Of a DNA stretch of 27,642 nucleotides, positions 4,840 to 27,642 are shown piece by piece. The notes beneath the pieces were generated by a model that saw nothing but the letters and a program-made list of their open reading frames with translations, did no database searches and was not told the DNA's origin. The stretch spans positions 1 to 27,642 of the forward strand of contig JAFGDV010000013.1 in the NCBI GenBank assembly GCA_016931955.1, written 5' to 3'. A program made the position numbers and the translations under genes. How positions within the stretch are numbered: the stretch's first letter is position 1; the number at the start of each line of letters is the position of its first letter. The stretch comes from Candidatus Altarchaeota archaeon. Lineage in GTDB: Archaea; Altiarchaeota; Altiarchaeia; IMC4; QMZM01.

Positions 4840-5640
4840 TCATCTCTCAGCTGCGTAGTTTTCCAGGAATTTTTTCGCGTACTGCGGGGCTTTTTCTATC
4901 ATTTCAGTGTCTTGTTCTTTGAACAGGAAGGGCTGCACCTGTTTAGCCAGCCTGTGCAGTTCCTTGGACTCCAGTTTTTCGAGGCGTTCCATGACCAGTT
5001 TTTCTGGTGGTTCAGTGTAGCTGTTTTCTTCCAGTATCTTTGAGTCGAATGGGAACTTCTTTTTCAGCATGTACAGTAGGTCATAGACGTCCCGGCCGCG
5101 GTTCCTGCTTAGGAGCGCGAGCAGTTTCTCGGTTATAAGAGACGATTCCGCCATAACTACTGCAGTATAGTTCAGCCCATAGTAGCTTAATACCTGCGTC
5201 TGCGTCTTCTGAGGCCACTGGGGCTGATTCACCTCCAGTTTCACCATGAGGTTCATTCCCCGCTCATCGGTTATCCCGTACCGCTTCATTACGCCGGGGA
5301 AGTTTATGTGGGCGCTGTAAAGCTTACCTCTTTTTTCATATTTTATTTCAGCCCTGAATCCTTCAAGGCTTGTTTCTTTTGCTGCGGCTTCGGCAATCTT
5401 CTGAAAACTTTCATAGGATAGATTAGTTGAGTTAAAGTCGAGGTCTTCGGAGAATCTGGGCAGACGGTAGCAGAGACGGAGGGCTGTTCCACCCATAAAG
5501 TAAAGTTTCTGCCCTAACCGTATCCGGTAGATGCCTGCAAGCAGGATATTCTGGAGATATTCTCTGATTACTGCCCTCTTCTTGTTTATTGGCAGGCCGA
5601 TGTCCTTTGCTTCTTCAAGCAGGTATTCAAGAGACAACAT
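4840..5640 (-). CDS. abiEii: AbiEii/AbiGii-family nucleotidyltransferase toxin
   Basis: The 266-aa protein has the DNA polymerase beta-like nucleotidyltransferase motif 'GGTALRLCYRLPRFSEDLDFN': GG at 50-51 and catalytic acids D66 and D68. A further conserved block is 'ITEKLLALLSRNRGRDVYDLLYMLKK' near 168-193. This is the AbiEii toxin of type IV-like toxin-antitoxin and phage-abortive systems, and relatives transfer nucleotides to tRNA acceptor ends. The ATG lies 14 bases inside the end of the AbiEi gene, so the pair is co-translated. The module sits between repeats derived from the end of the AEC gene and is probably horizontally acquired. Confidence 0.92.
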   Translation of the reverse strand: MLSLEYLLEEAKDIGLPINKKRAVIREYLQNILLAGIYRIRLGQKLYFMGGTALRLCYRLPRFSEDLDFNSTNLSYESFQKIAEAAAKETSLEGFRAEIKYEKRGKLYSAHINFPGVMKRYGITDERGMNLMVKLEVNQPQWPQKTQTQVLSYYGLNYTAVVMAESSLITEKLLALLSRNRGRDVYDLLYMLKKKFPFDSKILEENSYTEPPEKLVMERLEKLESKELHRLAKQVQPFLFKEQDTEMIEKAPQYAKKFLENYAAER

Positions 5641-6244
5641 CTTCCAGCAGTTCTTTTATTGTTTCGCGGGTTCTTTTATTATATTTGGCAGCGTATTTAA
5701 TCGTTTTTTCAGCTTTTAGTCTTGTCAGATTCAGACGCTCATGCGTGAAATCTTTTTCGCCGTCAAGAAGCCGGAAGTAGATGAAGTCCACAAAGGCCTT
5801 CTCTCTGTCGGCGATAAGCGTTTTATAACCTTCAATTTTTGTCATCTGATAGCCGGTGAATGCCTCTTTTTTGCAGTTTCGGTAGATGAATGTGCCGTGC
5901 TTGTTTCTGAAGATTCTCGTCGGCCGGGTGGATACGGAAGTTGCTGACGCCGCTTCTTCGGGGATGATTCCATAGAATGAGAGAGCGGCTTCCAGAGACA
6001 CATAAGAAGGCGCATAAAGCCTGTTTGCCAGATAGTAATCCGGGACACGGGTTGGCGTCCCCGGCTCGACGACCTCATAGAGACCTCTTCTCAGCCGCTC
6101 TAAGTAGCCCTTACGCAGCCAGTTGGTGAGGTTATTTTTGATTGTTTTACGTGCTGTTGTCGGGAACAACGCTTCAATGTCCCGTAGGGTGAAAAGAACC
6201 ATCTTTTTCTCCTTCAGGGTTTTTGAAAGGGTAAAATAGTCCAT
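5627..6244 (-). CDS. abiEi: AbiEi-family antitoxin / transcriptional regulator
   Basis: This 205-aa protein carries an N-terminal winged helix ('MVLFTLRDIEALFPTTARKTIKNNLTNWLRKGYLERLRRGLYEVV', 15-59) followed by the AbiEi C-terminal region ('YLANRLYAPSYVSLEAALSFYGIIPE', 'REKAFVDFIYFRLL'). AbiEi antitoxins neutralise AbiEii and repress their own operon by binding inverted repeats in the promoter. Exactly such a repeat, AGTCCTA-TATATG-TAGGACT, lies 13 to 32 bases upstream of the start codon. ATG 6244 lies at the distance from that TATA-containing spacer expected for a leaderless start. MVLFTLRD (M15) is an alternative start. Confidence 0.92.
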   Translation of the reverse strand: MDYFTLSKTLKEKKMVLFTLRDIEALFPTTARKTIKNNLTNWLRKGYLERLRRGLYEVVEPGTPTRVPDYYLANRLYAPSYVSLEAALSFYGIIPEEAASATSVSTRPTRIFRNKHGTFIYRNCKKEAFTGYQMTKIEGYKTLIADREKAFVDFIYFRLLDGEKDFTHERLNLTRLKAEKTIKYAAKYNKRTRETIKELLEDVVS

Positions 6245-23045: not shown

Positions 23046-23573
23046 TTACTTACAGAATGCGAAGGCCCAGTCTCCGCAGCCTTGTTTGCCGCTTGGGACT
23101 GATGGGTTGCATTCTACGGGCTGACACCACCCCTGTGAGCCAATCATACAGCCTTCGCTGCAGTTTCCGTCCGCGCAGGGCGGCTGAAGCTCTCCCCCAC
23201 AGGGCTGACATAATCCCAGGGTTCCTACCACGTAGCCTTCCATGCAGCCGAAATCACAAGAAACCTGAAAGACGCCTCCACAGAGGGTTGTAGTGGTTGA
23301 GGTGGTTGTGGTCGTCGTAGTTGTAGTGGTCGTCGTGGTTGTAGTGGTCGTTGTCGTAGTCGAAGTGGTCGTAGTCGAAGTGGTTGTCGTAGTTGTGGTC
23401 GTAGTGGTCACGAATACTACAATGGATACTGCACTTATCGTCAGCATACCCAGTAACACTATTGTTATGAAAATGACAACTGTCGTTGACGTGTTCTTTC
23501 CCTTCTCTGGTTCCTCTTCTTCGTCGAAGAGCGTGCTCCTCTTCTCCCTAAAATTAAAGGACTGCAGACCCAT
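23046..23573 (-). CDS. Membrane-anchored Thr-rich stalk with a Cys-rich outer domain
   Basis: The protein is 175 aa from ATG 23573 ('MGLQSFNFREKRSTLFDEEEEPEKGKN'); a longer frame to 23666 is less likely. An acidic cytoplasmic N terminus is followed by a membrane segment ('TVVIFITIVLLGMLTISAVSIVVFV', about 30-55). About 40 residues of almost pure Thr with single Ser follow (nucleotides about 23293-23412), and then a Cys-rich domain with two similar units ('CGGVFQVSCDFGCMEGYVVG', then 'CGGELQPPCADGNCSEGCMIG'). The Thr stalk is probably O-glycosylated and holds the disulfide-rich head above the S-layer. It points toward, and ends 4 bases from, the lipoprotein gene. Confidence 0.72.
   Translation of the reverse strand: MGLQSFNFREKRSTLFDEEEEPEKGKNTSTTVVIFITIVLLGMLTISAVSIVVFVTTTTTTTTTTSTTTTSTTTTTTTTTTTTTTTTTTTTSTTTTLCGGVFQVSCDFGCMEGYVVGTLGLCQPCGGELQPPCADGNCSEGCMIGSQGWCQPVECNPSVPSGKQGCGDWAFAFCK
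23293..23412 (-). repeat. Thr-codon tract (GTN on plus strand)
   Basis: About 40 consecutive Thr or Ser codons use ACC, ACT, ACA and ACG mixed without a fixed period, with TCG or TCA inserts. The mixture shows selection for the amino acid rather than recent slippage of one trinucleotide. Confidence 0.85.
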
Positions 23574-23740
23574 ATTATGTTTAAGTATGGTTTTCCACGG
23601 ATAAAAACAGCCCCAATAAGCCGCCTTAGATCCCATCAAGACTTGTTTTGTGTTTTTGGAGGGCATGAATCCTTAGAAAAGTTCAGAAAATATGCTATTT
23701 ATTGGATTGTTTCCATAGTTTAACAGTAGGAGGTGCTTTC

Positions 23741-25758: not shown

Positions 25759-25762
25759 GATG

Positions 25763-25774
25763 TAGTGCCTAACT
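25763..25774 (+). repeat. Direct repeat, left flank of the toxin-antitoxin pair
   Basis: TAGTGCCTAACT, five bases after the SecD-like stop, recurs at 26348-26359. AGG three bases before the core is also shared. A 12-base match alone is expected by chance in a window this size; its tight placement around the module is the reason to list it. Confidence 0.45.
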
Positions 25775-26293: not shown

Positions 26294-26347
26294 TGTTAAT
26301 ACTATAGCATACGCTCATAAAATTCTGGATGGATTTTTGCGAGGCCA

Positions 26348-26359
26348 TAGTGCCTAACT
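26348..26359 (+). repeat. Direct repeat, right flank of the toxin-antitoxin pair
   Basis: Second copy of TAGTGCCTAACT, between the toxin start region and the end of the winged-helix gene. The two copies enclose about 585 bases. Confidence 0.45.
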
Positions 26360-27048: not shown

Positions 27049-27070
27049 TATAGCCCCGCCAGGATCGAAA
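27049..27070 (-). repeat. Second copy of the tRNA-Gln 3' end
   Basis: The 17 bases 27049-27065 are identical to 27170-27186, which span the 3' end of tRNA-Gln and two bases beyond. The match continues loosely into the T-loop (TTCG). There is no D-arm or anticodon arm, so it is not a tRNA gene. The offset between copies is 121 bases. Confidence 0.8.
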
Positions 27071-27171
27071 TAAGGGCATCTTATACCCTTATCAACCCTA
27101 AGAATTCGCCACAGGCGAATTCCTTTTTCTTTTGGGATGATAGACCTTTTCTTTCGCAAAGAAAAGGGCTA
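27066..27171 (-). repeat. Three-hairpin module 1 (after tRNA-Gln)
   Basis: Hairpin A has arms CCTTTTCTTT (27145-27154) and AAAGAAAAGG (27158-27167). TTTGGGATGATAG (about 27131-27143) follows. Hairpin B has arms GAATTCGCC (27102-27110) and GGCGAATTC (27114-27122) with a T-rich tail on the plus strand. Then comes CAACCC (27093-27098), and hairpin C has arms ATAAGGG (27070-27076) and CCCTTAT (27086-27092). The same order recurs in module 3. Confidence 0.8.
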
Positions 27172-27244
27172 TAGCCCCGCCAGGATTCGAACCTGGGTCT
27201 CCGGGTCCAAAGCCCGACAGGATTGGCCACTACCCTACGGGGCT
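27172..27244 (-). tRNA. tRNA-Gln (anticodon TTG)
   Basis: This is a 73-nt cloverleaf. The acceptor AGCCCCG pairs with CGGGGCT, with A discriminator. The D arm has GGG/CCT, and the anticodon arm TCGGG-CTTTGGA-CCCGG gives TTG. The T arm is CCAGG-TTCGAAT-CCTGG. There is no intron and no encoded CCA, as in many archaea. It decodes CAA and CAG. Its 3' end is copied 121 bases downstream (27049-27065). Confidence 0.95.
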
Positions 27245-27341
27245 ACGTAGAAGGGATAAATTCCTCTTGAGTCGAATTTGCCATAAGGTGAATTCCTTTT
27301 TCTTTCGCCAGCGTTTCTTTTTCCTAAAAAGAAAGGCTGAA
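27245..27341 (-). repeat. Three-hairpin module 2, degraded (between the Gly 3' copy and tRNA-Gln)
   Basis: Hairpin A remains (TTTCTTTTT 27314-27322 and AAAAAGAAA 27326-27334). Hairpin B has two mismatches (GAATTTGCC 27274-27282 and GGTGAATTC 27287-27295). The GATGATAG linker and hairpin C are lost or changed. It is clearly derived from the same unit as modules 1 and 3. Confidence 0.65.
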
Positions 27342-27368
27342 GGCTATTTATGCGCCCGCCAGGATGAA
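27342..27368 (-). repeat. Second copy of the tRNA-Gly 3' end
   Basis: Positions 27342-27364 match 27483-27505 with one mismatch. The match covers the T-arm 3' half, acceptor 3' strand, discriminator and about nine bases beyond the tRNA. The offset is 141 bases. No other tRNA arms are present. Confidence 0.8.
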
Positions 27369-27491
27369 CATAAGGGCGCCTCCCCCGCCCTTATCAACCC
27401 ATCCGAGCCGTCGAATCCGCCTTGTGGCGGATTCTTTTTTTTTCTTTGGGATGATAGCACTTTCTTTTTCTTAAAAAGAAAGGGCTATTTA
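27369..27491 (-). repeat. Three-hairpin module 3 (after tRNA-Gly)
   Basis: Hairpin A has arms CTTTCTTTTT (27460-27469) and AAAAAGAAAG (27473-27482). The linker TTTGGGATGATAG (27445-27457) is identical to module 1. Hairpin B has arms GAATCCGCC (27413-27421) and GGCGGATTC (27426-27434) followed on the plus strand by nine T. CAACCC (27395-27400) comes next, and hairpin C has arms ATAAGGGCG (27370-27378) and CGCCCTTAT (27386-27394). Arm sequences differ from module 1 but keep pairing. Confidence 0.85.
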
Positions 27492-27564
27492 TGCGCCCGC
27501 CGGGATTTGAACCCGGGTAATCAGCTTGGAAGGCTGAGGTCCTACCAGACTAGACTACGGACGC
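27492..27564 (-). tRNA. tRNA-Gly (anticodon TCC)
   Basis: This is a 73-nt cloverleaf. The acceptor GCGTCCG pairs with CGGGCGC, with one G-U pair and A discriminator. The D arm has GTC/GAC, and the anticodon arm CAGC-CTTCCAA-GCTG gives TCC. The T arm is CCGGG-TTCAAAT-CCCGG. There is no intron and no CCA. It decodes GGA and GGG. Its 3' end is copied 141 bases downstream (27342-27364). Confidence 0.95.
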
Positions 27565-27642
27565 ATAAGTGTGAGAACCTACGATTCTCCCTTATCAACC
27601 CACCTCTCCCTTAAGATGAGCATCATCTAGGGTTTTGATGAA
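27565..27642 (-). repeat. Partial module 4 upstream of tRNA-Gly
   Basis: On the minus strand, GGGTTGATAAGGGAGAA and then TTCTCACACTTAT directly precede tRNA-Gly. This is the hairpin C part of the module, with new but still pairing arms. Further out, AGATGA (27614-27619) and TCATCT (27623-27628) form a small stem. No clear TATA box for the tRNA is seen, and the window ends here. Confidence 0.6.

Follow-up and report, generated by a model that had tools for sequence, protein, structure and literature searches.

Gene-less hairpin chains at tRNA genes of Altiarchaeales as probable non-autonomous mobile elements

Short (about 60–200 bp), gene-less chains of covarying hairpins are in all probability non-autonomous mobile elements of Altiarchaeales (probability about 0.8), because copies, empty sites and flanking duplications occur together. 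The chains are dispersed, associated with tRNA genes and flanked by duplications; orthologous sites are empty, related hairpins are present as tRNA introns, and the hairpin arms change in a compensatory manner. The original prediction, made from one stretch of DNA, proposed a tiny non-autonomous element that targets different tRNA genes. This proposal is the best fit to the present results, with a wider range of targets that includes 5′ ends, introns and the ends of coding sequences (CDS).

The tRNA-Gly/tRNA-Gln locus and its hairpin modules

The host is an Altiarchaeales MAG of 1.55 Mb (92% complete), and the window, the whole stretch of 27,642 nt that was analysed, is its contig C24. The host formyltransferase shares 78% identity with the one in an Altiarchaeota MAG and 67% with the one in Altiarchaeales IMC4, which places the host in Altiarchaeota. 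At positions 27049–27604 on the minus strand, two tRNA genes lie within a chain of three-hairpin modules. The order on this strand is hairpin C, tRNA-Gly, module A-B-C and a Gly 3′ fragment, followed by a degraded module, tRNA-Gln, module A-B-C and a Gln 3′ fragment, as predicted originally and as verified by ARAGORN, Rfam and direct reading of the strand. Module scores in the following list refer to CM R1, a covariance model from five modules, the E-values of which are rough.

27566–27594, minus strand: terminal hairpin C (AAGGG-GAGAA..TTCTC-..CTTAT), end of the element inserted at the tRNA-Gly 5′ end
27491–27565, minus strand: intact tRNA-Gly (TCC); ARAGORN; Rfam RF00005, 67.5 bits
27370–27486, minus strand: hairpin module 1 (A-B-C); CM R1 57.6 bits, outside the model training set; A AGCCCTTTC.../...GTGCT, linker CTATCATCCCAAA, B GAATCCGCC/GGCGGATTC, C ATAAGGGCG/CGCCCTTAT
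27350–27369, minus strand: duplicate of the tRNA-Gly 3′ end, from the T-loop to the 3′ end, with identity continuing through AAATAGCC
27249–27338, minus strand: degraded hairpin module (A-B); CM R1 33.2 bits
27171–27245, minus strand: intact tRNA-Gln (TTG); ARAGORN; Rfam RF00005, 61.8 bits
27070–27170, minus strand: hairpin module 3 (A-B-C); CM R1 114.4 bits, training-set member; fold −38.5 kcal/mol; A AGCCCTTTTCTTT/AAAGAAAAGGTCT, B GAATTCGCC/GGCGAATTC, C ATAAGGG..CCCTTAT
27049–27069, minus strand: duplicate of the tRNA-Gln 3′ end (nt 55–75 of the tRNA plus 1); sequence match

The Gln fragment, TTCG-ATCCTGGCGGGGCTATA compared with TTCGAATCCTGGCGGGGCTATA, agrees at 21 of 22 positions with one gap and includes the 17 contiguous identical bases that had been claimed. 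The Gly fragment, described as near-identical, differs from ATCC[C/T]GGCGGGCGCATAAATAGCC by one mismatch, and its identity reaches 8 nt beyond the tRNA end into AAATAGCC. The supposedly invariant linker TTTGGGATGATAG is indeed exact at 27131 and 27445. The modules have fold energies of −38 to −52 kcal/mol, and an Rfam scan of the window returned the two tRNAs only, with no known RNA family above the gathering score for the hairpins. Contig C27 shares 26 bp with the end of the window, and the two contigs are probably adjacent. C27:1–230 (L168) contains the rest of the hairpin element inserted at the tRNA-Gly 5′ end, together with two copies of a tRNA-Gly 5′ fragment (TGCGTCCGTAC...), which lie upstream of tRNA-Gly in the joined region. 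The description of the fragments as 3′ copies downstream of a tRNA therefore held and was incomplete, as 5′-end copies also lie upstream of tRNAs, including this one.

Hairpin A has the form AGC[C]CTTTTCTTT/AAAGAAAAG[N]GCT, in which a mismatch recurs. Next comes CTATCATCCCAAA; its ATCATCCC part is able to pair with a later GGGTTGAT around hairpin B. The arms of hairpin B (GAATTCGCC, GAATCCGCC, GAATCTGCC, GAATTTGCC, GAATTCCC and GGATCTGC) are each accompanied by their exact complement, and the same holds for the changing arms of hairpin C (ATAAGGG..CCCTTAT); the arms of a fourth hairpin type (CAAGACC, CAAGACGC, CAAGATGC and CAAGACAGC) likewise have complements. Arms that change and still pair, a feature first pointed out at this locus, are found genome-wide. 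The compensation test was performed on GAAT-N13-ATTC, in which only the outer four pairs are fixed: all five inner positions form Watson-Crick pairs in 21 of the 47 distinct sites (about 0.05–0.07 expected), and several pair types occur at four of the five. Judged from the sequences, arm pairing is kept by compensation, which is compatible with a DNA structure as well as an RNA structure.

Dispersed copies, duplicated gene ends and empty sites

A search of the genome and its relatives with a covariance model, as suggested with the original prediction, located modules beyond the window. CM R1 has 23 matches in the host genome at E≤0.01, and 14 of them lie no more than 500 bp from a tRNA, spread over nine tRNA loci (0.27 expected, p about 7e-22); the modules are thus not confined to the first locus. 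The linker TTTGGGATGATAG has 10 exact genome copies; some lie at contig ends, the others beside tRNA genes such as those for Val, Arg, Phe, Glu and Gly. The affected tRNAs also include Val, Arg, Phe, Glu, Pro, Met, Gly, Ser, Thr and Asn. Most strong matches are on the tRNA strand, the module composition is combinatorial and variable, and the inserts are mostly about 60–200 bp in size, with 37–308 nt between tRNA and fragment. Perfect 9-bp hairpins number 55 in 407 kb of the genome versus 7 in Markov-1 shuffles and are concentrated at tRNA loci, so the pattern at the locus is not due to chance. Among 60 further sampled genomes, CM R1 matches were obtained in 16, 15 of which belong to the same order. 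The elements are abundant in G000, G002, G008, G009, G015 and G018 and scarce in G001 and G024–G028. Two element patterns gave 0 matches to viral relatives in IMG/VR, and a 16-mer gave 12 matches, which is roughly chance level by a rough estimate for a collection of that size. The genomes compared are MAGs, several of them fragmented, partly since these repeats break assemblies. Many host contigs (C3, C28, C44, C45 and C46) end inside hairpin arrays, and tRNA genes (17 found) are therefore probably under-counted in this MAG. A 13-bp motif, GTTAGGCACTACA, is dispersed in about 20 genome copies, two of them in the window at 25761–25773 and 26346–26358 (both minus strand), and was noted at L068–L088; short arrays of it are present in G001 and G002, and it occurs as direct repeats around hairpin elements at L180 and L214.

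Inspection of 17 of 17 host tRNA loci revealed 5′-end copies upstream of tRNA-Ile, Phe, Glu, Thr and Ser and 3′-end copies downstream of Val-TAC, Gly-TCC, Gln, Met, Phe, Arg-TCG and Pro, with more than one downstream copy for Met and Pro. Fragments were counted when they matched their own tRNA, were end-anchored and lay within 300 bp of it, with other tRNA genes masked. Among the 132 tRNA genes in seven Altiarchaeales genomes, 48 have such a fragment across a hairpin-bearing insert, versus 0 of 69 tRNAs in control archaea (Fisher 7e-11), a small set consisting of 18 tRNAs from one genome of the same class but a different order and 51 from other archaea; a swapped-flank control gave fragments in 2 of 264. 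The 5′ fragments end at nt 12–34, and most 3′ fragments are 13–21 nt long and therefore start in or near the T-loop. The outer boundary lies within −2 to +4 nt of the mature tRNA end for 19 of the 22 3′ copies and within −2 to +5 nt for 26 of the 31 5′ copies. A boundary always exactly at the mature end was rejected, as 5 of the 31 upstream copies run at least 10 nt beyond it. The duplication length is variable (about 8–61 bp). A generic flanking-repeat search was weakly discriminating (12 of 83 matches above the 99th percentile, with a high control maximum), and the tRNA-anchored test was substituted for it. About a third of the CM matches have a clear flanking duplication; of the other two thirds or so, some may be old or arranged differently. 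Upstream of tRNA-Glu, three families (G000, which is the host, G008 and G015) share the same hairpin at nt 28, and the nt 1–28 fragment of G008 is identical to its own tRNA, which differs from the tRNAs of G000 and G015; such a close resemblance of fragments to their own tRNA would be explained by repeated site-specific insertion or by gene conversion.

Other inserts were observed in the relatives. At L294–L309, L233 and L253 of G018, tRNA 3′ inserts of 58–71 bp are flanked by duplications of 14–17 bp and contain a terminal hairpin with apparently conserved tandem GA mismatches (GC-GA-GTC..GAC-GA-GC) and a covarying tip. A different element, beginning GTCGGAGTTAGCCGAC at or a few bases from the end of the 5′ fragment, is present in tRNA 5′ inserts of G002, G009 and G018; it mostly follows directly after TAGTCTAG/TAGCTCAG (nt 15/16), such that element type and target site are coupled.

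Introns are present in 33 of the 132 Altiarchaeales tRNAs versus 1 of the 69 controls. A hairpin-1 signature, N-CCC(C)TTTTCTTT...AAAGAAAAGG-N′, occurs in introns of G018 tRNA-Glu, Arg, Ser (as called), Thr, Ala and Asn, which makes at least six G018 introns, and in G020 tRNA-Lys. The intron of host tRNA-Asn has a 29-nt stretch, CAGCCTTTTAGGAAAAGGCTGGCGAAAAC, in common with the C27 element upstream of tRNA-Gly. The intron inserts occupy the canonical position beside the anticodon and leave the tRNA foldable, and helices across the intron junction are predicted in some precursors. At CDS ends, too, hairpin elements lie between two copies of the gene end, with duplications of 47–61 bp. The duplication at L139 (61 bp) ends at the stop codon, and that at L156, in a PEP-synthase-like gene, has 57 identical bp inside a longer copy ending at the stop; at L217, 47 bp are perfect and the gene is four codons shorter, with a new stop from the element. 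L144 and L170 also carry hairpin elements between duplicated gene ends. A stop codon as the invariable end of CDS duplications was considered as well; L139 and L156 agree with this rule, and L217 and L170 do not.

Empty sites were found in G001, a genome of the same genus, in which fragments are nearly absent (1 of 25 tRNAs). The spacer from Gly-TCC to Gln-TTG is 24 bp long in G001, with no insert, extra tRNA or hairpin, versus 245 bp in the window, which argues against tandem duplication of a tRNA-spacer unit, the competing origin named in the original prediction. In the host, tRNA-Asn contains a hairpin intron of 72 nt and is preceded by a hairpin chain that follows a copy of the tRNA start (TGCCTCG), whereas tRNA-Asn in G001 lacks both the intron and the upstream insert. 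In syntenic comparison between the genomes, insertions are likewise absent from the Thr, Ser-GGA, Gly-GCC, Pro-TGG and Arg-TCG loci of G001; the host tRNA-Thr is called ‘Phe aaa’ by ARAGORN because of its intron. As an exception, a related hairpin subfamily follows tRNA-Phe and tRNA-Ser in G001.

Insertion mechanism and alternative explanations

The elements would preferentially insert in tRNA genes, in the D-arm/anticodon-arm (nt 12–34), the anticodon loop or the T-loop (nt 54–62), and less frequently close to protein-gene ends. The target would be duplicated from the internal break to the gene end, so that an intact gene flanks the element at one end and a fragment at the opposite end. We infer that one strand is cut at the tRNA end and its partner in a loop region, after which the hairpin element would be joined in and gap filling of the staggered cleavage would create the duplication; a folded DNA or RNA shape may be recognised, presumably by an enzyme provided in trans. 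An insert at the anticodon would survive as an intron if spliceable. Both the missing enzyme and the way in which the duplication boundaries match tRNA ends suggest a mobility mechanism undescribed so far, possibly a structure-guided one. A tentative extension, which we regard as conceivable rather than likely, is that the elements form a new mobile-element class whose machinery reads nucleic-acid shape over sequence, placing paired-arm hairpins into tRNA loops and mature ends, duplicating the segment and acting as a continuing source of tRNA introns and fragments in Altiarchaeales.

Some findings run against a mobile element. RT, Cas1 and Y1 are absent from the host and most element-bearing relatives, the variable duplication length is unlike that of most DDE transposases or site-specific recombinases, and random staggered cuts do not explain an outer boundary at mature tRNA ends. 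No parent autonomous element with matching ends was seen at the loci examined, and no polymorphism was observed inside a single population. Variable duplications and a missing enzyme, along with perfect short palindromes having 3-nt loops, would suit replication or repair errors (fold-back synthesis, template switching or filler DNA at tRNA-gene breaks) with no dedicated element. However, internal sequences (the linker, GGGTTGATAAGGG and GTCTGAGTYGAG) and family-specific ends recur at unlinked loci and therefore indicate the copying of particular sequences, which makes such errors an unlikely source.

Slightly less likely still is a functional structured RNA, an option also named in the original prediction, with hairpins in tRNA transcripts (trailers, leaders and introns) serving processing or regulation and with the fragments as part of the architecture. 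The arms covary as those of a structured RNA do, the strong matches are mostly on the tRNA strand, and the hairpin shared before tRNA-Glu at nt 28 in G000, G008 and G015, with fragments resembling their own tRNA, fits as well. Nevertheless, orthologous tRNAs in the same genus have no hairpins, similar elements occur at protein-gene ends, in introns and at GTTAGGCACTACA repeats, and the modules are combined variably. SINE-like retroposition by target-primed reverse transcription would explain target duplications of variable length and one 3′ terminal hairpin that recurs (GGTTGATAAGGG..CCCTTAT) while the 5′ parts vary; it is improbable given that no RVT_1 protein (RT, PF00078) is present in the host, G001, G002, G008, G009, G015 (a single contig) or G018. 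Least probable of all are footprints of tRNA-targeting integrative elements (tyrosine integrase, attB in the tRNA) with a deleted interior, since, although an intact tRNA plus a displaced T-loop-to-3′-end fragment is their classical footprint and a 5′ tRNA fragment with a 1.8-kb recombinase element is a precedent in Caldiarchaeum (PMC3293823), one hairpin family occupies many tRNAs, both tRNA ends, introns and CDS ends, every target would require a separate attP, and no integrase gene or remnant was seen in the inserts, which at 37–308 nt are too short for one.

Relation to known systems and candidate enzymes

The closest known kinds to these probable mobile elements are organellar palindromic elements, archaeal MITEs and the tRNA-intron cases of Caldiarchaeum and Thermoproteales. 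MITEs are also non-autonomous and short, with inverted repeats and flanking duplications, and three features expected of a MITE-like element were found here: copies at unlinked loci, a flanking target duplication and an empty orthologous site in a close relative. In contrast to MITEs, the Altiarchaeales elements have no parent transposon found, a variable duplication and several covarying hairpins instead of one terminal-repeat pair. Organellar palindromic elements include yeast mitochondrial GC clusters (PMC4478555) and the repetitive hairpin elements of sponges (PMC2800124, citing double-hairpin elements). By analogy, with no homology claimed, these are similarly short, gene-less, hairpin-forming and dispersed, lie near tRNA, rRNA and protein genes, form larger arrays and have no established enzyme. 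The yeast GC clusters are flanked by repeats of 2–3 bp (AG, ACT), whereas the duplications in Altiarchaeales cover 8–61 bp of tRNA or gene ends; the Altiarchaeales elements further differ in being archaeal, in preferring tRNA genes and in occurring also as tRNA introns.

Transposition of tRNA introns in Thermoproteales is known from similar introns in different tRNA genes (Fujishima et al. 2010, as cited in PMC4390854); compared with the cases as summarised there, the Altiarchaeales hairpins are also found outside introns, at tRNA and CDS ends, with duplicated gene ends. In Caldiarchaeum, the disruption of tRNA-Thr left a 5′ fragment upstream of the intact tRNA and was tied to mobile DNA and intron gain, but it concerns a single locus, where the element is 1.8 kb long and has a putative recombinase, whereas dozens of loci and gene-less elements of about 60–200 bp are involved in Altiarchaeales (PMC3293823). 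No description of such elements in Altiarchaeota was found in the open-access literature. The elements bear on how tRNA introns, split tRNAs and tRNA gene fragments arise in archaea. Related hairpins occur at 5′ ends, at 3′ ends and as introns, and a genome of the same genus has empty sites, so that an origin of tRNA introns from mobile elements can be tested directly.

By the tests made, the elements are not casposons, SINE-like retroelements or IS200/IS605 derivatives. Casposons, which use a Cas1 integrase, target the 3′ ends of tRNA genes and create duplications of about 14–15 bp, similar to the 14–17 bp at tRNA 3′ ends in G018; however, no Cas1 (PF01867) is present in the host, G018, G015, G002 or G009. 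Spacer acquisition, raised by the 3′ inserts of G018, was dropped as Cas1 is absent. IS200/IS605 or REP-RAYT elements are not known to create a target duplication, unlike the Altiarchaeales elements, and the Y1 transposase (PF01797) is absent from the host, G001, G002, G009 and G018 and present in G008 and G015. LAGLIDADG_3 proteins were rejected as the mover, as LAGLIDADG genes do not track the elements. Among the other genes observed, the window encodes an AbiEi/AbiEii-type toxin-antitoxin gene pair at 4840–6244 on the minus strand (Pfam AbiEii 2.8e-24, AbiEi_4 6e-6) and, at 23046–23666 on the same strand, an ORF with a hydrophobic segment followed by a long polythreonine tract and a cysteine-rich part. 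On host contig C26, a free-standing LAGLIDADG_3 ORF lies between a carB-like gene and tRNA-Met (L040:1592–2101, minus strand) and is the only LAGLIDADG_3 match in the host genome.
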